From: a virus
DNA length: 40,531 nt
IMG/VR virus record: IMGVR_UViG_3300047497_000276
Span: 1-40,531 of that record
Reading direction: 5' to 3' (one strand)
Within the stretch, counting starts at the first letter, position 1. Every line of letters starts with the position of its first letter. The position numbers were made by a program, and so were the translations under genes. The notes under the pieces are model-generated. The model had not been told where the DNA came from, ran no database searches, and saw only the letters and a program-made list of their open reading frames with translations. This document shows, one piece after another, positions 27,594-40,531 of the stretch.

Positions 27594-27618
27594 AATAAAA
27601 AGCCCTCCGGAGAGGGCT
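27594..27618 (-). terminator. Intrinsic terminator of ardC
   Basis: AGCCCTC and GAGGGCT form a 7-bp stem with a 4-nt loop, then TTTTTATTT. The stem overlaps the ArdC stop codon. Confidence 0.88.
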
Positions 27619-28477
27619 ACGCTGCTTCTGCAACCTTCTCCGAAAATGCCCGGAGATAGTCTGCTGCCTGTGATGCTTTCGACGCGGCCGTAAATATGGC
27701 CCGGTCGTCTTCCTTTAGGAGCTTTATCCAGCTCGCAATGTACTCGGCGTGCCGGAGCTTGCCTTCCACCTGGAGGTGAGCGCAGAGGAACGCGGCCCCG
27801 AGCTCGGCTACCAATTCCTCCGCAGCGTATGCCTTGGTGCGAAACCGGCCGGTCATGTCACGGTCCAGGCGATGCTTGGCGCCGGACCAGTGCGTCAGCT
27901 CATGCAGCGAAGTGGCAAGGTAGTGCGCTCGGCTCTCGAAGCTCTCCGGTGTTGGCAGAGAGATTAGGTCGCCATTGCCCTGGTAGTACGCTCGGTCGCC
28001 ACCATGCCGGATGTACGCGCCGGTCGCTTCAATGAAGCGTTGGGCGTTGTCCTGGAGAACCGGGAGCGCTTGCTCGATGGTGATGGCGGCTTTCGGCAAG
28101 CCTTCCATCTGCCACTCATTGAAGACATTGAACGTGCGGAGCATGCCGATTTGCTTCTCCACGTCCTCGTCTTCCTTGATGGTGAGTTTCTTGGTGAACA
28201 CGACTGTGGTGCTCTTTTCACCGGCCCGGACTTGCGCTCCTGCCGCCTGGGCCTGCTTGTAGGTAAGCCAGCCGTGCGTTGGGTAGCCACGAGCGTGCGC
28301 GGCGGCCCACAGTATCGGAATGTTTATTCCGGAGTACGACCGATTGCTTGCCGCGTTGAACGGCAACAATCCGCCACGGGCGCCGCATTTCCACGGTTTT
28401 GTCCAAGGTGCAACTCCTGCCTCTAGGTCTGCGATGATGGTGTTTGTGACTTGCTCGTAGAGAGCATCGACGCGCAT
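27617..28477 (-). CDS. ardC: ArdC-like antirestriction protein
   Basis: This 286-aa protein has the two ArdC domains. The N-terminal DUF1738-type ssDNA-binding domain (1-125) includes GVAPWTKPWK and NRSYSGINIPIL. The C-terminal zincin-like metallopeptidase has HELTHWSGAKHRLDR (192-206) and EELVAELGAAF (220-230). Plasmid and phage ArdC proteins protect incoming DNA from host restriction. A perfect AGGAGG (28483-28488) lies 5 nt before the ATG, unlike the virion genes. That suggests independent origin. It has its own terminator. Confidence 0.93.
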   Translation of the reverse strand: MRVDALYEQVTNTIIADLEAGVAPWTKPWKCGARGGLLPFNAASNRSYSGINIPILWAAAHARGYPTHGWLTYKQAQAAGAQVRAGEKSTTVVFTKKLTIKEDEDVEKQIGMLRTFNVFNEWQMEGLPKAAITIEQALPVLQDNAQRFIEATGAYIRHGGDRAYYQGNGDLISLPTPESFESRAHYLATSLHELTHWSGAKHRLDRDMTGRFRTKAYAAEELVAELGAAFLCAHLQVEGKLRHAEYIASWIKLLKEDDRAIFTAASKASQAADYLRAFSEKVAEAA

Positions 28478-31310: not shown

Positions 31311-32258
31311 TTAGATTTTCTTGCCGAACCGATTAACTTCGTAGAGCACTGTGCCTTTGCGAAAGGCAATCTTGTGCGGGTAGCTCGGATTCTTCCAGGT
31401 GTGGGTATCCGTCAAGGCAACCTCTATCGCCACATAGCGGTCTCCGATGTTGCTGCGGAACTCGTCGCAGAAGTAGGTACGCGAGCAAGCGTGAAATTTA
31501 CCCGGCCCACACTCTCCACTTTTCGGCTCCCAATGCGGGTGCTCGACGGTAGAGCCAACGGCCCAAAGTGTTTCGTTCGATGTGCCTTCCTGTGTTTTGA
31601 AGTCGGTAGAGACGCGCTTGTAGAGAATTATGGTCTTGGTCTTTTCAACTGCGTTCGCGTCGAACCAGTCAGTCGGCTTAGGCTTGATGATAGTCGCGGT
31701 CTTGGCGTTCTTTTTAATTTTGCCCTTACCGATTTGCCAGCACACCGCAAACATAAAGAGGGCCACAGTGGCGTAGTCCGAGAAGAGGTGAACGCCGACG
31801 TTTTCCCACGCCTCGACGGATGAGTTTTCCCACGCCTCGACGGATGAGTTTTCCCGCGCCACGACGGATGAGTTTCCCCGCGCCACGACGGATGAGTTTA
31901 CCCGCGCCACGACGGATGAGTTTACCCACGCCTCGACGGATGAGTTTTCCCGCGCCACGACGGATGAGTTTTCCCGCGCCACGACGGATGAGTTTCCCCG
32001 CGCCACGACGGATGAGTTTTCCCGCGCCACGACGGATGAGTTTCCCCGCGCCACGACGGATGAGTTTCCCCACGCCACGACGGATGAGTTTTCCCACGCC
32101 TCGACGGATGAGTTTCCCCGCGCCACGACGGATGAGTTTTGAATTTTTCGCGCGACCACAATGAGCGTCGTCGCCTGAATATAAATGCGGGTGTACTCGT
32201 CGAACTTCTCCGGCAGAGCGTCAAAATCGCTCTGCTTCGTCACAATGATTTCGTTCAT
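31311..32258 (-). CDS. Octapeptide-repeat (NSSVVARG) beta-solenoid protein
   Basis: This 315-aa protein starts with a 40-residue segment (MNEIIVTKQSDFDALPEKF) and then 14 octapeptides, residues 41-152. They alternate NSSVVARG, NSSVVARE and NSSVEAWE with variation only at positions 5, 7 and 8. A regular 8-residue turn repeat of this kind predicts a right-handed beta-solenoid. The C-terminal 150 residues form a separate mixed domain (KTIILYKRVSTDF, YVAIEVALTD, GTVLYEVNRFG). Similar repeats occur in phage and bacterial proteins of unknown role. It sits mid-operon among tiny genes. Confidence 0.8.
   Translation of the reverse strand: MNEIIVTKQSDFDALPEKFDEYTRIYIQATTLIVVARKIQNSSVVARGNSSVEAWENSSVVAWGNSSVVARGNSSVVARENSSVVARGNSSVVARENSSVVARENSSVEAWVNSSVVARVNSSVVARGNSSVVARENSSVEAWENSSVEAWENVGVHLFSDYATVALFMFAVCWQIGKGKIKKNAKTATIIKPKPTDWFDANAVEKTKTIILYKRVSTDFKTQEGTSNETLWAVGSTVEHPHWEPKSGECGPGKFHACSRTYFCDEFRSNIGDRYVAIEVALTDTHTWKNPSYPHKIAFRKGTVLYEVNRFGKKI
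31803..32138. repeat. Fourteen tandem 24-bp repeats
   Basis: The repeat encodes the octapeptides. Unit changes are concentrated in a few bases (CGC/CAC, CCTC/CCAC). Because 24 is divisible by 3, extra reading frames stay open through it on both strands; these are not genes. There are no spacers, so it is not a CRISPR array. Confidence 0.95.
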
Positions 32259-33373: not shown

Positions 33374-33404
33374 AAATAAAAAGACCGCAGAGTTATGCGG
33401 TCTT
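33374..33404 (-). terminator. Intrinsic terminator of the primase-fragment gene
   Basis: AAGACCGCA and TGCGGTCTT form a perfect 9-bp stem with a 6-nt loop, followed by TTTTTATTT on the minus strand. The stem contains the stop codon. Confidence 0.92.
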
Positions 33405-33956
33405 GAGTTCTACTACTCCACCAACGCGGAAGGATGACGGGAGCCTCGCTTCGGTAATGCCGATGTAGCCCGTCAAGTTTCCGTTCTCGTCTCGGATAGG
33501 AACGGCGACTGTCCCGCGCATGATGCCTTTAGCGGCGTAGCCGATACCAAGTGCCTTCGCCGTGTCGGGGTCAAAGCCAACGGTAGCGACGGCCGCGTGG
33601 TCATGCTCCAGATAGTCCAGAGGCTTGAGCGTGCCTTCTTTTTCCTGGACCTTCTGGGGAACGGTGGGACTGGTCGTCTTCCCGATACGAAAGTGTTGAG
33701 CGAGTTCTTCGGCCGCATCCTTGAGCGGCACTTCCTTGATGTGCGCCACAAGGTCAATGACCGAGCCGCCCGCCGAGGAATTGAAGCAATACCAAACAGA
33801 ACGCGCGGGAGTGAGGGCAAGCGTTCTGTCGCCACCGGCATTACAACGCGGACATGCGCCGCGGAGTTGGTGTTGGGACGGTTTTAATTTCAGTCCGAGA
33901 AACTGCGCCGCTTGTTCAAGCGACACCGCTTCTTTCACTTGGTTGAAGTCTGCCAC
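33393..33956 (-). CDS. CHC2 zinc-finger primase-like fragment
   Basis: This 187-aa protein resembles the front of DnaG-type primases: SLEQAAQFLGLKL, then CPRC (35-38), SVWYCFNSSAGGSVIDLV (54-71) and a helical hairpin. A toprim-adjacent region follows (DPDTAKALGIGYAAKGI, TVAVPIRDENGN). The fourth zinc Cys (CFGC in DnaG) is replaced by Asn/Ser, and there is no Toprim catalytic motif. Similar fragments occur in conjugative elements. The GTG start is fixed by AGGAGG (33962-33967), 6 nt away. Confidence 0.8.
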   Translation of the reverse strand: MADFNQVKEAVSLEQAAQFLGLKLKPSQHQLRGACPRCNAGGDRTLALTPARSVWYCFNSSAGGSVIDLVAHIKEVPLKDAAEELAQHFRIGKTTSPTVPQKVQEKEGTLKPLDYLEHDHAAVATVGFDPDTAKALGIGYAAKGIMRGTVAVPIRDENGNLTGYIGITEARLPSSFRVGGVVELKTA

Positions 33957-34041
33957 GGTCGCCTCCTGTGTGGATATTGGAATGGACGGGTCTGCCGTAA
34001 TGGTACCATTGGTGCAGAGGGTCATCCGTTGGAGTGTGGAT

Positions 34042-34129
34042 GGGGAAAGCAATTAGATGCTCTGGTGACGCAGAGCATGGAGCGTAGTCAGCGCTATCTA
34101 CCGAAGTTGCTTTCACTTCGGCTTTCCCC
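34042..34129. ncRNA. Candidate four-helix RNA in divergent gap
   Basis: GGGGAAAG (34042-34049) pairs with CTTTCCCC (34122-34129). It encloses ATGCTCTG/CAGAGCAT (34057-34078, perfect 8 bp), AGCG/CGCT (34081-34095) and CCGAAGT/ACTTCGG (34101-34121). The layout matches the 3253-3347 element in helix number, not in sequence. It may be the leader of the 34171 gene or of the primase fragment. It has no tRNA T-loop. Confidence 0.45.
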
Positions 34130-34435: not shown

Positions 34436-34600
34436 TCATATTGTGGGCTGTGTGCAGTTACGCGCGGTATGGTCGGGTGACCCGCACTTACTACACGACT
34501 GAGCTTTCCTTTCTTTCACTTTACCGCCGACGGCGGCGGCTATGTCGGCGTCTATTTCATCACGCTTGTCCAGCAACTCACGCAGTTTTTGCGTGTCCAT
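34436..34600 (-). CDS. Mini zinc-knuckle protein (54 aa)
   Basis: The frame begins MDTQKLRELLDKRDEIDADI and contains a canonical CCHC knuckle, CSKCGSPDHTARNC (about 36-49). The start overlaps the end of the relaxation gene by 23 nt, and the terminator lies 7 nt past the stop. It is therefore part of the transfer operon. Single-stranded nucleic-acid binding is inferred. It parallels the knuckle protein at 431-997. Confidence 0.75.
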   Translation of the reverse strand: MDTQKLRELLDKRDEIDADIAAAVGGKVKERKAQSCSKCGSPDHTARNCTQPTI

Positions 34601-35585
34601 TATCGTCACCACCTTTCAGTACCGGACTGTTGAGGAAGAGGTCGGGGTGTCCGGCGCGTTCCCACCCTTTAGTGAATAACTCCGGCATCGGTTTCGGATG
34701 CTGGCTGATGTTGAGAATGGAGGGCATGACGGCGAACGCGACACACGACGCCCCTTTGCCACGCGTGAGTTCCAGAATGAGAGCTTTACGGCGGTCAACG
34801 TCATGCTGATTGATGCACACGACCAGGTGGATGAGATTCGGAAGGCCCCAGTGCTTCGTGTAGAGCTTCTGCCGCTCTATCTCCTGCATGGAGAGAAACT
34901 TCTTTAGGAAGCTCGGCCGTGAAAGTGTGGGGCGTTCAACCTCGGCTTTGTTTTCCGCTTCTAGGCTGAAGAAACGGAAGCCGCTTGCAAGCTCAACACC
35001 GAAAGCACCATGACTGTCGTTCGTGTAGTCGTAGGTGATGCTTTCGGCACCCGTCTTGTAGACGTGCGAGATAGTCACCGGGAGCGTGGTGGGTTTTTCG
35101 GACTGGAGTGTCGCGGCGGGAAAAAGGGTTGAGTGGGTGATTTCCGGCCACCACACCATCTTAGCTCCTGCTTTTTCCGCGCCGATCTGAATGGAACTGA
35201 TGGCGTCGCAGATAAGCATGGAGTGGTCGAACAGTTTTTCATCCCCGAATTGGAGCGGGTTAAACAGCCCTTCGTCTTTCATGAAGGTGACGCCACGCTC
35301 AGCCAGCTCGTAGATTTGAAAGCGGGAGTTCGGGAACGGCTGGCGGTAGAAGTCGTCGGGAATGAAGAGATAGTTGTTCGGAAGGCGGGTAAGTTCTTTC
35401 ATCCTGCGGCGCGTGGCGACCACGTTCATGCCGTTAAGGGCGGCGATGGTGTCGGGGCGCAAGCGGCGATACCGCGCGAAGTGGCGAAAAAGATTTTCCT
35501 TGTCGTGCGCCGTCGGCTCAAGCTCAAACGGCTTGCCGTCCTTGCCAAGTATCGGCGCGTTGCTGTGTCGGCTTAATCGTTCCAT
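34578..35585 (-). CDS. Replication-relaxation family protein
   Basis: The 335-aa protein begins with a winged-helix region (about 22-100): HDKENLFRHFARYRRLRP, ALNGMNVVATRRRMKELTRL, then YLFIPDDF and a YELAERGVTF helix. This pattern fits the replication-relaxation family found on plasmids and integrative elements beside TraG/VirD4-like ATPases, as here. The C-terminal part is mixed alpha/beta, without a recognised relaxase HUH motif. DNA binding at an origin of transfer or replication is inferred. The ATG at 35585 is preferred over an upstream TTG. Confidence 0.7.
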   Translation of the reverse strand: MERLSRHSNAPILGKDGKPFELEPTAHDKENLFRHFARYRRLRPDTIAALNGMNVVATRRRMKELTRLPNNYLFIPDDFYRQPFPNSRFQIYELAERGVTFMKDEGLFNPLQFGDEKLFDHSMLICDAISSIQIGAEKAGAKMVWWPEITHSTLFPAATLQSEKPTTLPVTISHVYKTGAESITYDYTNDSHGAFGVELASGFRFFSLEAENKAEVERPTLSRPSFLKKFLSMQEIERQKLYTKHWGLPNLIHLVVCINQHDVDRRKALILELTRGKGASCVAFAVMPSILNISQHPKPMPELFTKGWERAGHPDLFLNSPVLKGGDDNGHAKTA

Positions 35586-35709
35586 GTTTGGAGAAGTAGA
35601 GGGCTTGGAGTTCTCGGGCAAAGGTAGCCAGGAGGAACTACGCGGAAGCCCGGTGTACGGCGATGCGCTGTGACCACATCGGTAGACACAAAATTATTTT
35701 AGCACCTTA
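35586..35709. other. Intergenic region with shared motifs
   Basis: The 124-nt gap holds CCAGGAGGAACTACGC (35628-35643), CGGTAGACACA (35680-35690, also at 38978-38988) and ACAAAATTATTTTA. No clear sigma70 promoter was found. Shared motifs suggest a common regulator of the transfer genes. Confidence 0.4.
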
Positions 35710-35719
35710 TCAGCGGTGC
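35702..35719 (-). terminator. Weak terminator overlapping the ATPase stop
   Basis: GCACC and GGTGC form a 5-bp stem containing tandem TGA-TAA stops, then TAAAATAATTTTG. Confidence 0.45.
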
Positions 35720-37515
35720 CACTCGGTCGGCGGCTGCGGCTGGGAAGAGCTGGGCGGCGGAATATGCGTAGGCGTTTCGCGCTCCACGCTGAACGCTTCG
35801 CGCATCTGCGTGAGGATGGCCTGAAACTGCTCCTCGCTCATGCGTTCCATTTTGCCAAAATCAACGGGCGGGACACTTATCTCGACCGGCTCTTTGTTGG
35901 CGACTGAAACGTTCCATTTCGGATAGTTCACGGAAGGCCAAAACTGTATCGCCACCTTGCGGAGCGCGTTACGCACCGTTTCATCAAGGTCTTGTATTTC
36001 GTGGACGGCAATAGTGAGATTGACGTTCTGCTTGCGGGCTTTTTCGGTCAGCTCGCGTATCTTTTCATCATGCTTGATGTAGTCCTGCGCCTCGTCGATG
36101 TACGCAAAGACGGGAAGCCGCGCCCCGCGGTCCAGAAACATGCGCTCTTCGGTCGCCTGCAATAGCTTGGCGATGAAGAAGCGGCCGAACGGCTCGGTCG
36201 CGCTTTTGAGCATACCCTCCTTGGTATTTACGAGAATGACTTTCGGCTCCTGAAGAAGCTTGAAGAGATTGAACCGGTTGCGGGGGTTGGTGAACATGGA
36301 AAGAAACAAATTGTCGCTGGTGAAGGCGGTGAGCCGCGCCCGGATAGCGCCCAGGCTCGCCGCGTAGCCTCCGTCGAACATATCGGCCGTTAGAAAACGG
36401 CGGTCGGTGTCGCTCAGTGGCGCCAGATATTCTTCGTACTTCGCGAAGCCGCCCTTTTGGAGAAATTCTTTGAAGGTGAGAACGGTCGCGCCGGGGATGA
36501 GCATAACGGCACGCAATACCGTCTTGAGGATGGCATCCATAAAGCCGGAGGTATCGGCTTTAACGAGCGCCTCCATGAAGAAAAATATCATCTCCTCCGT
36601 GCCGCGCTGGAGGGTCATGCGCTGGCTGGAAGACAGAGAGGCCATCAGCTCTTTGTTGAAGTCGAAGATATTTAAGCAAAGCGGATAGTCCGGCTCGTAC
36701 TCAATGTAGACGAGCTTGCCGTGCAAGTCGCCGCCGGGGGCAAAGCGTTTCAACCGCGCTATATCGAGGACAAGCTGGTTCTGGCTGTCCATCACGAAGA
36801 CGGACGCCTCATTGCGGGCAACTTTATTCAGGTCTTCGTTGATCTGCGTGGAAAGTAGTGTGGTCTTGCCCGAGCCGGTGGGCGCGACAATAAACTGATG
36901 GCGGAGACGGTGCTCTTTGGTGAAGCCAAATGGCACTTCTTGGCGAAACAACTCTTTGAGTTCCGGCTTCCAAGTAGCGGATGCGTCCCGGACCGATTTT
37001 AACTTTGAAGCGTCGAAGTCGGCATACCCGGCGAGGTGAGTATCTTGCGCGGGCTTCAACACGCTGCCGAGTTTTGCGAGCGGCACGGCGTCGAAGTACT
37101 GCAATGAGAACGGCCCCGGTGTCGGGACAAATGTTGCCAACTTCTCTTCCACACCTGCGAGTGCGGTCCGTTCTTTCTGCTCTGCGTCTGCCTGGAGCGT
37201 CCGTATCTCGCGGTCTACCGAACTCGGGTCCCACAGTGCGCGGATGGTGTGGTCTGCTCCGCCCCAAAACATCATCGCCAAAAAGGCGGTTGAAAGAATG
37301 ATGAGCCAGAACGCTATCCAAAACGGAAAGAGGCCCCAGAGACCGACGTAGAACGAAGCGAGCGATAAGACAAAGGCGCCATACAAAATGTCGCGGGTGA
37401 GCGTGTTGCGGTTTTTCGTGTCCACCCAGTTTTGCAGGAAGTTGAACGACGCAAAGATGCCGGTCAGCCCGAAGGCTGCGAACATAATGCTGAGAATGAA
37501 GCCCCCGAACGTCAT
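35710..37515 (-). CDS. VirD4/TraG-like coupling ATPase
   Basis: This 601-aa protein is built like a type IV coupling protein. Three N-terminal membrane helices (about 3-28, 43-62, 65-86) are followed by a coiled segment and a RecA-like motor. Walker A is APTGSGKTT (211-219), FVMDSQNQ (240-247) follows, and Walker B is VFAYIDEAQD (469-478). A TIAVHEIQDLDE sensor segment follows. The Pro/Ser-rich tail is disordered. Such ATPases pump single-stranded DNA through a membrane channel. No other transfer-channel genes are here. The ATG at 37515 starts the first helix. Confidence 0.85.
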   Translation of the reverse strand: MTFGGFILSIMFAAFGLTGIFASFNFLQNWVDTKNRNTLTRDILYGAFVLSLASFYVGLWGLFPFWIAFWLIILSTAFLAMMFWGGADHTIRALWDPSSVDREIRTLQADAEQKERTALAGVEEKLATFVPTPGPFSLQYFDAVPLAKLGSVLKPAQDTHLAGYADFDASKLKSVRDASATWKPELKELFRQEVPFGFTKEHRLRHQFIVAPTGSGKTTLLSTQINEDLNKVARNEASVFVMDSQNQLVLDIARLKRFAPGGDLHGKLVYIEYEPDYPLCLNIFDFNKELMASLSSSQRMTLQRGTEEMIFFFMEALVKADTSGFMDAILKTVLRAVMLIPGATVLTFKEFLQKGGFAKYEEYLAPLSDTDRRFLTADMFDGGYAASLGAIRARLTAFTSDNLFLSMFTNPRNRFNLFKLLQEPKVILVNTKEGMLKSATEPFGRFFIAKLLQATEERMFLDRGARLPVFAYIDEAQDYIKHDEKIRELTEKARKQNVNLTIAVHEIQDLDETVRNALRKVAIQFWPSVNYPKWNVSVANKEPVEISVPPVDFGKMERMSEEQFQAILTQMREAFSVERETPTHIPPPSSSQPQPPTEWHR

Positions 37516-37551
37516 GCGGCCAAGGTGTTTGGGGCTGGGGGAATAGTCAAT

Positions 37552-37592
37552 AAAAAAGGCCCTAGAACCCCGTATACGGCCCGTAGGCGGCC
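37552..37592 (-). terminator. Terminator after the P-loop-less ATPase gene
   Basis: GGCCCTA (37558-37564) pairs with TAGG(CG)GCC (37584-37592), with an inner CCG-TATA-CGG hairpin (37570-37579) and then T6 on the minus strand. Confidence 0.75.
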
Positions 37593-37598
37593 GGAAAC

Positions 37599-38360
37599 CT
37601 ACTCCATGAGCCTCTGCACCAACTCGGTGTGCGCCGTCGTGTTGGGGACCAGGCGGGCGTACTGCGCGAGGGTCTGCGCGTCCTCCCAAGTGCATCGCTG
37701 GCCGATTTTCTCCTCTATCAAAAGTAGAGCCTGCTGAAGTTTCACGGGTAACTCCCCGAGGAAGTTGACGCCTGCCGTAAGCCTCTCCTGCCGGATGAGT
37801 GCCACATGAAACATCCGGCCATAAAAGCCAAAGTCAGGGACAATGACCTGTCCTTGAGTCTGTCCGATAAGCAAAGAGCCGAGCACGAAGGCGTCGAAGT
37901 CTCCGAGTGTTGCCCGGTCAATCTTTGCCACGACCGACCCCTTGAAGGAAAAGTTCGTGGGGTTGCACAGTACCCGTTGCAGCACTGGAGATAGCAAAAG
38001 GTCGTCTATCGTTTCGTTCGCCTCAACGGAGCCGGGATCGGATGAGCGGGGAAGTTTGTCTATCCGTTTCGCGCCCGATAGCAGAAGGCGTGTGAGCGCA
38101 CGCTTGCCATTGCGGACGGTCAACGTTTCGGAGCCTTCTGGGGAGGCCGAGTAAATCGTGGCGGCGAAGTCGCGGGCGCGTTTGTAGTCGATACCCTTCA
38201 GAGGATTAAAACAGTGAACGGCCGGGTCAAAAAGTTTGGCGTGCGGAAACTCGGCGATAAAAGCATCGGCTATAGGGCCGTCGTCAATAACCAAAAAGCC
38301 CGGCGTCGTGTCGAGAAGTTCTTCCGTTTTGTCGGCGCTGCCGATGAGTAGCGTGTTCAT
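37599..38360 (-). CDS. P-loop-less coupling-ATPase-like companion
   Basis: The 253-aa protein resembles the motor domain of VirD4/TraG proteins after the P-loop: FLVIDDGPIADAF, KLFDPAVHCFNPLKGIDYKR, ARDFAATIY, TVRNGKRALTRLLL. No Walker A is present and Walker B is not convincing. It reads as a catalytically dead paralogue or regulatory subunit of the adjacent ATPase rather than a recent fragment, because the frame is intact and the start and terminator are its own. The ATG follows a long leader hairpin. Confidence 0.65.
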   Translation of the reverse strand: MNTLLIGSADKTEELLDTTPGFLVIDDGPIADAFIAEFPHAKLFDPAVHCFNPLKGIDYKRARDFAATIYSASPEGSETLTVRNGKRALTRLLLSGAKRIDKLPRSSDPGSVEANETIDDLLLSPVLQRVLCNPTNFSFKGSVVAKIDRATLGDFDAFVLGSLLIGQTQGQVIVPDFGFYGRMFHVALIRQERLTAGVNFLGELPVKLQQALLLIEEKIGQRCTWEDAQTLAQYARLVPNTTAHTELVQRLME

Positions 38361-38362
38361 AT

Positions 38363-38407
38363 GGCTGAAGTGGTAGAGCTATCTGGTGTGTAGGTGCCAC
38401 CTCAGCC
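38363..38407 (-). promoter_or_regulatory. Leader hairpin abutting the ATPase-companion start
   Basis: GGCTGA-A-GTGG (38363-38373) pairs with CCAC-C-TCAGCC (38397-38407), 10 of 11 pairs. It ends 2 nt before the ATG on the minus strand, so it may hide or space the start. Confidence 0.5.
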
Positions 38408-38417
38408 CTAAAAAAGA

Positions 38418-38689
38418 ACGGTCCTCTGTAATTGTACCGTGAGAATGCACAAAGCCGCCCGATTGCGGCGAGCGGCTGTGCTGGATTTCTTTCGCCCCCG
38501 GCAGAGGCCGGGAATATGTTCGCGTCCCGTTACTCGGGTACGCTAGGAGCAAAGAGCGACTGTCGAAACTCTACCATGAAACGCGAAACCGCCCCACAGG
38601 GTGAGAGGCGGTTTGCGGAGAGCGTGTGGCCCCTTGCGGGGAAAAAGTGTCGGGCGATGCGGCGCCTCGACCGTGAAATTGTAGCACGG
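38418..38689. ncRNA. Serial hairpins, candidate large structured RNA (left part)
   Basis: Stems: ACGGT/ACCGT (38418-38440), GCACA..GCCGC/GCGGCTGTGC (38447-38481), CCCGGC-AGAG-GCCGGG (38497-38512), GCGTCCCG/CGGGTACGC (38522-38543), AAACCGCC/GGCGGTTT (38586-38614), CCCC-TTGC-GGGG (38630-38641), GTCGGGCG/CGCCTCGAC (38649-38671), CCGTG/CACGG (38671-38689). Neither strand shows terminator T-tracts, so these are not ordinary terminators. Confidence 0.45.
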
Positions 38690-38720
38690 TGAAACGTGAA
38701 AAGTTTTTGTGCGGTGAACT

Positions 38721-38926
38721 GTCCCGCTCAACTGTTCGTCGGTGGCCCGCGCGTTAGCGCGATTAGGCCACGACCATTCTATCTTTCCCTGAGCGTATGG
38801 TTGGCCTGTAGTGGTAACTAAAGGACATGCCTAAAGCGAGGGGTCCTCGCTGTCCTAGACCGTAAGGGATAGGCAAGAAAAGATAGAATGGTCGTGGCGT
38901 GAGCCCGACGAACAGTTGAGCGGAAC
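38721..38926. repeat. 206-bp nested inverted repeat
   Basis: Outer arms 38721-38742 and 38905-38926 pair at 21 of 22 positions. Inner arms 38768-38786 and 38879-38897 pair at 19 of 19. Between the left arms lies CGCGC-GTTA-GCGCG (38748-38761), itself flanked by GTGGCC/GGCCAC. The centre contains AGCGAGG-GGT-CCTCGCT (38835-38851) inside AGGAC/GTCCT. TGCCTA (38828-38833) can also pair with TAGGCA (38870-38875), which would form a pseudoknot. Confidence 0.85.
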
Positions 38927-38949
38927 GGTTGTAAATACAGTGTTTTGTA

Positions 38950-38988
38950 CCGAATATTTCGGAACGGTAGGTGTCAACGGTAGACACA
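38950..38988 (-). promoter_or_regulatory. Hairpins with a -35-like TTGACA
   Basis: CCGAA-TAT-TTCGG (38950-38962) and GTGTC/GACAC (38971-38987). On the minus strand TTGACA (38972-38977) could be a -35, but no good -10 is spaced correctly. CGGTAGACACA (38978-38988) repeats the 35680-35690 motif. Confidence 0.3.
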
Positions 38989-39020
38989 GGCGTAAGCACT
39001 GGAATCGTGGGGTTGTAGGC

Positions 39021-39058
39021 ATAGAAAAAGGGCTGCCGAGTGTGCACCCCGACAGCCC
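39021..39058 (-). terminator. Terminator of the AlpA-like gene
   Basis: GGGCTG (39030-39035) and CAGCCC (39053-39058) form the base of a 10-bp stem with two G-T pairs, then T5 on the minus strand. Confidence 0.85.
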
Positions 39059-39065
39059 CAACTCC

Positions 39066-39353
39066 CTATTCGGGAGCAAACCAGTCACCTGTCACCGACA
39101 GGCCGTGGGCCTCAAAGTAGGCAAGCACTTCCGAAACCTTCCACACGATAGGTGAGTTACGGTGCCAGCCGAGTTTCGTGCATTTCGGAAATGGGTCGGG
39201 GTTAGGTATAACCTTCACCTCACGACGACCATTCGCCAATTTGCGCGACACTTCAATTGTCGCCTTCATCTTCCTATCAGTATGGGCTCTCGAAATGGGC
39301 CAGCCCATTCTTTTGAGTCCACTCCAGTCCACAATCAGAGGCTTGGTAGACAT
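39066..39353 (-). CDS. AlpA-like/excisionase-type regulator
   Basis: The 95-aa protein has a pattern of AlpA and phage excisionase winged helices: LKRMGWPISRAHTDRKM (recognition start), DPFPKCTKLGWHRNSPI, and VWKVSEVLAYFEAHGL. These small proteins bind near attachment sites and steer integrase direction or activate its gene. GGAG lies 7 nt before the ATG. It is immediately downstream of the integrase gene and has its own terminator. A plain transcription regulator is the alternative. Confidence 0.7.
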   Translation of the reverse strand: MSTKPLIVDWSGLKRMGWPISRAHTDRKMKATIEVSRKLANGRREVKVIPNPDPFPKCTKLGWHRNSPIVWKVSEVLAYFEAHGLSVTGDWFAPE

Positions 39354-39421
39354 CGTTCAGCTCCGAAGTAGTGGAGCATCCGGATGTCCACGGTTACCAC
39401 CGATGGAACGGCGGAACCTTA

Positions 39422-40531
39422 TCAGGCGGCGAGGATGGTGGAAAGATGGTCCTCCCACAGTTCTACGGCTTTCCGCATTTCGGCCTGGTAGGTGTGCCGG
39501 TTATAAATGCCGACTAGCCCGCCGGTCGTGCCGGTGATGTGGTTGAGCAATTTCTCGACGACGTGGATGGGCGTGCCGAGTTTCGCCTGGTTGGTGGCAA
39601 ACGTCCGGCGGAGGTCGTGCAACGTCCAGTCGGAAGTTTCGCTTTCCTCGTCGAGTATCGCTTTCGACTTGCTCCACCCGTTGAAGGGCGTAGTCCGGCC
39701 GCGAGCCGGAAAGAGAAGTCCCGGACCGGCATTGCCGATAACTTCGGAGGCCAGTTGCCCGAGCGGGAACGTGTGCTCGTTTCCGTTTTTGCAGAGCTCG
39801 GCCGGAAGCGTGCAAAGTTTGTCCGCAAAGAACTCCCCGGCGAACGCGGCAACTTCGCTGCGGCGCTGGCCGGTCAACATCAGAAGTTTCACGATCCGCC
39901 GGAACGATGCGGGCAGTTGGTTGGTGTGGTCGTTGCACGCCGTCCAGATGCGTTTCAGCTCCGCGTCGGTGAGCACTCGTTCGCGGGTCTTGGTGCGCCG
40001 GGCGCTGATGCCCATAACCGGATTGTCGGAAATGTACCGGCGCTTCTGGCACCAGTTGAAAAAGCCCCGAACCGATGCGAGGGCGTGGTTGTACATCGCC
40101 GCGGACTTGATGCGGTCGAGCCTGCGAACAATCTCTCCGTGGGTCACGTCTGCGAGCTGGCCCTTAAAATCAAAGAAGCGGTCAAGGTAATACTCGTAGT
40201 CACTGACGGTGTTCGCCCGGCGGGCGTTCCGCTTCTCGTCCAGGAAGAGTTTGACGGCCGCGGGAAAGCTGAGGGCCTGGGGACGCAGCTTGCCCAATGT
40301 CTTCTCTGCCAGCATCCGCTTCGCTTCGGTGCGGGCTTCGGCAAGCGAGAGGACGGGATAGCGGCCGATGGTGCGGCGGGAGTTCGAAACGTTGAGGATG
40401 AACGTCTTCGAACCGCCCTGCGACACGCGCACGCCGAAACCGGGGAGCGAAGTGTCCCACACATCGCATTGCCCTTTTTCCGGAACCGGAAGTGAGCGTA
40501 CCAACGCGTCACTCAAACTTTGCTTAGGCAT
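39422..40531 (-). CDS. int: Tyrosine integrase, P4-like
   Basis: This 369-aa recombinase has an N-terminal DUF4102-type arm-binding domain (LSDALVRSLPVPEKGQ, WDTSLPGFGVRVSQGG), a core-binding domain (about 90-175), and a catalytic domain. The catalytic residues are Arg223 (LTGQRRSEV), Lys248 (CKNGNEHTF), HDLRR (305-309), His331 (LLNHI) and nucleophile Tyr343 (GIYNRHTY). All are intact. Its ATG is the last codon of the window. Integration, often into tRNA genes in this family, is expected. No attachment site is visible here. Confidence 0.95.
   Translation of the reverse strand: MPKQSLSDALVRSLPVPEKGQCDVWDTSLPGFGVRVSQGGSKTFILNVSNSRRTIGRYPVLSLAEARTEAKRMLAEKTLGKLRPQALSFPAAVKLFLDEKRNARRANTVSDYEYYLDRFFDFKGQLADVTHGEIVRRLDRIKSAAMYNHALASVRGFFNWCQKRRYISDNPVMGISARRTKTRERVLTDAELKRIWTACNDHTNQLPASFRRIVKLLMLTGQRRSEVAAFAGEFFADKLCTLPAELCKNGNEHTFPLGQLASEVIGNAGPGLLFPARGRTTPFNGWSKSKAILDEESETSDWTLHDLRRTFATNQAKLGTPIHVVEKLLNHITGTTGGLVGIYNRHTYQAEMRKAVELWEDHLSTILAA

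Follow-up and report, generated by a model that had tools for sequence, protein, structure and literature searches.

The window analyzed here (the whole stretch of 40,531 nucleotides, a virus record with recognizable terminase, major head, portal and integrase families) carries a conserved, covarying and strand-marked hairpin between the integration and MOBC-type mobilization modules of a temperate phage. Counting the window, this core element is present in 13 phages or prophages. Our preferred, though tentative, reading is that the core is an oriT or a single-strand-initiation DNA region belonging to a phage-borne MOBC module.

Structure and content of the block

The first-pass annotation had described positions 38361-39024 as a gene-free and strongly structured block, and both descriptions hold. 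Against dinucleotide shuffles of both strands the block folds far beyond chance (z -9.0 on the + strand and -10.7 on the - strand, with 0 shuffles as stable), its only ORFs are short TTG/GTG frames, and no ORF or conserved protein coding common to its homologues was seen. The nested inverted repeat that had been put at 206 bp is real and measures 214 bp. The block is made up of several parts rather than one structure (Table 1).

A large ornate RNA or an oriT/ori had been proposed for this block. The oriT side has since gained support, both from the strand-specific, DNA-like loop statistics and from the T4CP and PF13814 (MOBC) relaxase relatives of the neighboring genes described below, and a GOLLD- or ROOL-like RNA has not. 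The block is like those RNAs in size, phage context and number of stems but unlike them in Rfam, where the whole window gave 0 matches at the gathering threshold and the region 37600-39400 gave no credible match even at E<=10. The block's DNA showed no similarity to phage and plasmid collections. A tRNA-like remnant at 38361-38410 was considered and rejected, as ARAGORN finds none and the segment is the operon leader hairpin in relatives.

The best-conserved stretch between the window and the related contig L006 is 38444-38581, which has a terminator-like hairpin on the - strand and may encode a short - strand RNA. At the place in L006 that corresponds to about 38440 of the window there is an extra 73-aa ORF with an N-terminal hydrophobic stretch (L006 2681-2902, - strand); it lies on the strand opposite to the operon and is absent from the window.

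Table 1. Features of the block and its flanks (window coordinates)
Position	Strand	Feature	Basis
33393..34052	-	CHC2 zinc-finger primase-type protein	
34578..35621	-	MOBC-type (PF13814) relaxase homologue	via relatives
35710..37695	-	VirD4/HerA-like ATPase, N-terminal membrane segments	TraG-D_C in L048, L054; HerA, TrwB in PDB search
37599..38360	-	253-aa protein, first gene of the operon	family of 18 aligned members
38363..38407	-	leader hairpin abutting start codon of 253-aa gene; belongs to that operon	20 loci
38431..38436	-	TANAAT box (TACAAT), likely -10 of operon promoter	same position in relatives' leaders, by inspection
38444..38581	.	conserved segment (138 nt) with terminator-like hairpin 38447-38481	84% identical to L006
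38717..38930	+	core hairpin, 214-bp nested inverted repeat: P1, internal loop with side hairpins, P2, variable tip	inverted repeats, 13-homologue covariation
38750..38759	+	side mini-hairpin CGC(GTTA)GCG, 5' side of internal loop	
38767..38786	+	P2 5' arm	20 bp, perfect complement of 38879-38898
38879..38898	+	P2 3' arm	pairs with 38767-38786
38896..38905	+	side mini-hairpin GGC(GTGA)GCC, 3' side of internal loop	
38950..38987	+	two small hairpins 3' of core	sequence; similar ones in L006
39025..39060 (about)	-	intrinsic-terminator-like hairpin and T run after excisionase gene	by inspection
39066..39353	-	excisionase-like gene, no family match itself	AlpA in L048, L055 at same place
39422..40531	-	tyrosine integrase	Arm-DNA-bind_3 domain

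The core hairpin and its homologues

The outer arms of the core (38717-38742 and 38905-38930) are 26 nt long and 92% complementary, and the inner arms (38758-38791 and 38874-38907) are 34 nt long and 82% complementary. Folded as single-stranded DNA, the core gives z -13.2 on the + strand and -11.7 on the - strand. P1 ends in CCGC..GCGG in most homologues and usually has one bulged base, the internal loop has small hairpins on both sides in most of them, and P2 has the common form CACGACCCAATG/CATTGGGTCGTG; the tip varies among homologues in both length and sequence.

The first related contig (L006/G001) was reached through the ATPase, the integrase and a DNA motif, and in comparison with it the big helix shows compensatory changes (GACCATTCTATCTTT/AAAGATAGAATGGTC against GACCATTTCCCTTTT/AAAAGGGAAATGGTC). 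ATPase-based scans returned L006 alone or nothing, and the DNA motif GTAGTGGTAACT was abandoned as a homologue finder, L006 being its sole real match. The adjoining 253-aa gene is a better search handle and led to relatives in records of Bauldia, Sphingomonadaceae and Bradyrhizobium and in as many as 16 viral contigs; host-order scans for this family yielded 0 further genomes. Nine of the 253-aa-gene loci, the window counted, have the core. A palindrome pattern search added three more (L065, L068 and L073), the other five of its eight new matches being false (L063, L064, L067, L070 and L072), and a search for inverted repeats brought in L032, whose copy is chromosomal and stands next to an integrase.

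The covariation analysis that had been suggested at the first pass finds covariation in these 13 homologues. Of 323 helix cells, 319 remain paired, there are 36 extra Watson-Crick pair types, and 18 of the 25 helix columns switch pair type. All 154 cells of P1 are Watson-Crick, with 21 extra pair types, although its register and bulges were hand-placed to maximise pairing and so the pair counts lean towards structure; for P2 the figures are 165 of 169 cells and 15 extra pair types. Shuffled partners reach at most 110/154 in P1 and 136/169 in P2, values that are liberal because the sequences are related, and when the register is slid pairing drops to about a third.

Covariation is equally expected for RNA and for single-stranded DNA and cannot alone separate them. 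Together with the very low folding energy and the + strand mini-hairpin signature (below), it speaks for the main rival to our reading, a new class of structured non-coding RNA of about 220-300 nt, made from the + strand and acting in the lysogeny or mobilization decision.

Strand and loop signature of the core

Mini-hairpins of the form C(GNA)G or C(GNNA)G occur 30 times on the + strand of the core element and twice on the - strand, where the phages' own sequence predicts 8.4 per strand; thus the + strand looks like the structured one. Extraordinarily stable DNA mini-hairpins are known to have GNA or GNNA loops, with any N, closed by G-C pairs (PMC4686876). In the G..A tetraloops on the + strand the third base is a purine 17 times and a pyrimidine 16 times (GNRA:GNYA 17:16), as against 15:2 in a 4.5S RNA control (Fisher P=0.013; a single statistic, picked after the loops were seen, on related sequences). 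This absence of purine bias, unlike 4.5S RNA, favors single-stranded DNA over RNA, and the loop statistics lean to DNA. Two other strand tests, wobble counting and comparison of strand fold energies, were discarded because 4.5S RNA, a true RNA, failed both: among 29 true 4.5S RNAs there is no G-T excess (12 G-T vs 23 A-C), and the true strand is the more stable in 14. Applied to the core, they give 11 G-T vs 10 A-C and 12/12 for strand fold energy, and prove little.

An RNA is further disfavored by the Rfam result and by the + strand of the core itself, on which no intrinsic terminator and no shared promoter were recognized by eye. There is precedent for it in SGI1, whose transfer needs a self-encoded RNA between oriT and the mobilization genes (PMC9299015). 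The core is like this sgm-sRNA in being a non-coding element beside mobilization genes and a possible oriT on an integrative element; it differs in its loops, which look DNA-like, and in that transcription of the sgm-sRNA is proven. We consider the RNA reading unlikely. Should a transcript exist, the 13 members would form a covarying RNA family absent from Rfam. Otherwise, a structure of single-stranded DNA may account better for what looked like a giant structured RNA, and the loop statistic (GNA/GNNA vs GNRA, plus strand asymmetry) could help to sort similar findings.

The neighboring mobilization operon

Judged from its predicted products, the operon next to the block looks like a mobilization module, with a VirD4-like coupling protein, a PF13814 relaxase and a CHC2 primase-type protein. 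The true start of the ATPase gene is probably at about 37515. In relatives, the third operon gene matches PF13814 (Replic_Relax; 2.2e-8 in L048 and 3.2e-6 in L053), and five of the eight members of its family match at E<=0.1. The window protein has no direct match to the PF13814 model but aligns to the matching relatives at 99.6% probability, and D198, E221, E227 and K241 (D/E/E/K) are invariant. MOBC enzymes are PD-(D/E)XK-like (PMC9299015, PMC12857230), and PF13814 is recognized as the MobC relaxase superfamily and co-occurs with VirD4 coupling proteins (PMC5357655). A CHC2-type protein like that of the window was seen by eye in L036, L040, L048, L053 and L054. No T4SS gene was recognized among the proteins scanned, so mobilization would need a helper.

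The same genes could instead serve phage DNA replication. The core would then be the place where rolling-circle or lagging-strand synthesis begins, initiated by the relaxase-like protein and primed by the CHC2 protein. Single-strand origins typically contain hairpins, and a primase-type gene does lie in the operon. Replication has no need, however, of a coupling protein with membrane segments, and there are relatives with the operon but no core; we regard a replication origin as improbable.

The leader hairpin

A second conserved hairpin immediately precedes the operon, 0-8 nt from the start codon of its first gene in 20 of the 20 loci measured (L068 and L056 were left out of this count). Its outer stem covaries, with 116 of 120 pairs Watson-Crick and 3 G-U (shuffles at most 98); pairs were counted directly, since MAFFT + RNAalifold misaligned the arms. 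The inner motifs TCCTG and GGGCTCTAC are conserved, and in most leaders a conserved GG start follows the TANAAT box at a distance of about 6 nt. The hairpin of L037 is followed by a gene other than the 253-aa gene, and the motif lies some 500 nt upstream of the latter, as expected if it marks the 5' end of the operon. In L033 (7001-7685, a Bradyrhizobium record) several separate frames make up the broken 253-aa gene, and the leader hairpin is still recognizable.

The leader is also found in loci that have no core. This constant association with the operon makes it the stronger candidate for the oriT in the strict sense; it is equally possible that it acts as an RNA leader.

A possible oriT or single-strand initiation element

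oriTs lie near relaxase and coupling-protein genes, often with inverted repeats, and may overlap a promoter (PMC5587640). The core adjoins the predicted relaxase and coupling-protein genes and holds inverted repeats, as an oriT should. About ten loci have the operon and leader but no core, which therefore cannot be the module's only oriT; its distance of 2 kb from the operon in L032 also speaks against this reading. We propose that the block would be a non-coding control region of the mobilization module, in which the core acts as DNA, either when its + strand is single-stranded or when a cruciform is extruded. The folded core would be a long stem whose internal junction carries very stable GNA/GNNA mini-hairpins as caps, and would serve as a strand-specific recognition site. 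It could be the part of an oriT upon which the adjacent MOBC-type relaxase and VirD4-type coupling protein act to mobilize the phage. Alternatively, it could be a single-strand initiation site of the adjoining leading region, at which the entering strand would begin to be primed or transcribed.

The oriTs of MOBC elements (pAD1 TraX, CloDF13 MobC) offer a close parallel in gene content, a PF13814/MOBC relaxase and VirD4-type coupling protein beside non-coding inverted repeats (PMC5357655, PMC12857230, PMC5587640), except that the module here is on a tailed phage. In pAD1 a direct-repeat bind site lies 70-120 bp from nic, a feature known for one prototype only (PMC12857230); no such series of direct repeats, and so no counterpart of that site, was seen here. 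The Frpo/ssi elements of conjugative plasmids, which act as single-strand promoters and priming sites, are long imperfect ssDNA hairpins near transfer genes (PMC11541004), as the core would be, with a gene set different from that found here. The core helices contain no Frpo-type -35/-10 mimic (TTGACA/TATAAT): P1 varies freely, and the P2 consensus CACGACCCAATG is without such boxes. The nic sequence of CloDF13, which may resemble the P2 arm, was not used as evidence.

If the oriT or single-strand-initiation reading is correct, tailed phages can make use of conjugation, and the hairpins pinpoint the DNA sites for it. A wider proposal is that a tailed temperate phage lineage, in at least the Alphaproteobacteria, carries a MOBC relaxase/coupling module with its own strand-specific hairpin origin, spreading both as virion and by conjugative mobilization, and that the hairpin is a new type of cis-acting ssDNA element; this seems to us somewhat doubtful. 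The window also encodes an ArdC-type anti-restriction protein (27617-28477). ArdC genes are typical of conjugative elements, and this one is in a tailed phage.

The integration side

In most loci int lies on the opposite side of the core from the operon, and several have an AlpA-type gene; L040 has only the AlpA-like gene, with no int, within the stretch examined, and in L032 the core is 2 kb from the operon, beside int. This arrangement recalls λ sib, where a long duplex lies 3' of int and on its strand, and the core, itself a long and nearly perfect duplex, likewise lies downstream of int-xis on the same strand. It might then be a retroregulator or insulator of the int-xis transcript, its duplex being cut by RNase III upon read-through past the excisionase terminator. 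Unlike sib, however, the core is behind a terminator that separates it from xis, its loop signature is on the other strand, and within about 5 kb of the L043 core neither int nor xis was recognized; we think such a role very improbable.

Since attC sites recombine as folded single strands and a tyrosine integrase is nearby, the core could also be imagined as a folded attC- or attP-like recombination site. The window (at 40531), L006 and L054 all end at or near the integrase start codon, and in L032 the 5' end of the integrase faces host-type genes, so att should be on the far side of int. The core is interior to int in these contigs and in the chromosomal copy, which makes a recombination site hardly credible. 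The contig ends at the integrase start codon resemble those of proviruses trimmed at gene borders, with att outside the record.

Among core-less relatives, other long hairpins precede the same operon in L038 (5530-5622), L039 (5446-5565) and L045 (upstream of 5001), and at least one tRNA-like gene is found upstream of it. Elsewhere in the window, positions 31311-32258 encode a protein with many tandem short repeats (NSSVVARG/NSSVEAWE).
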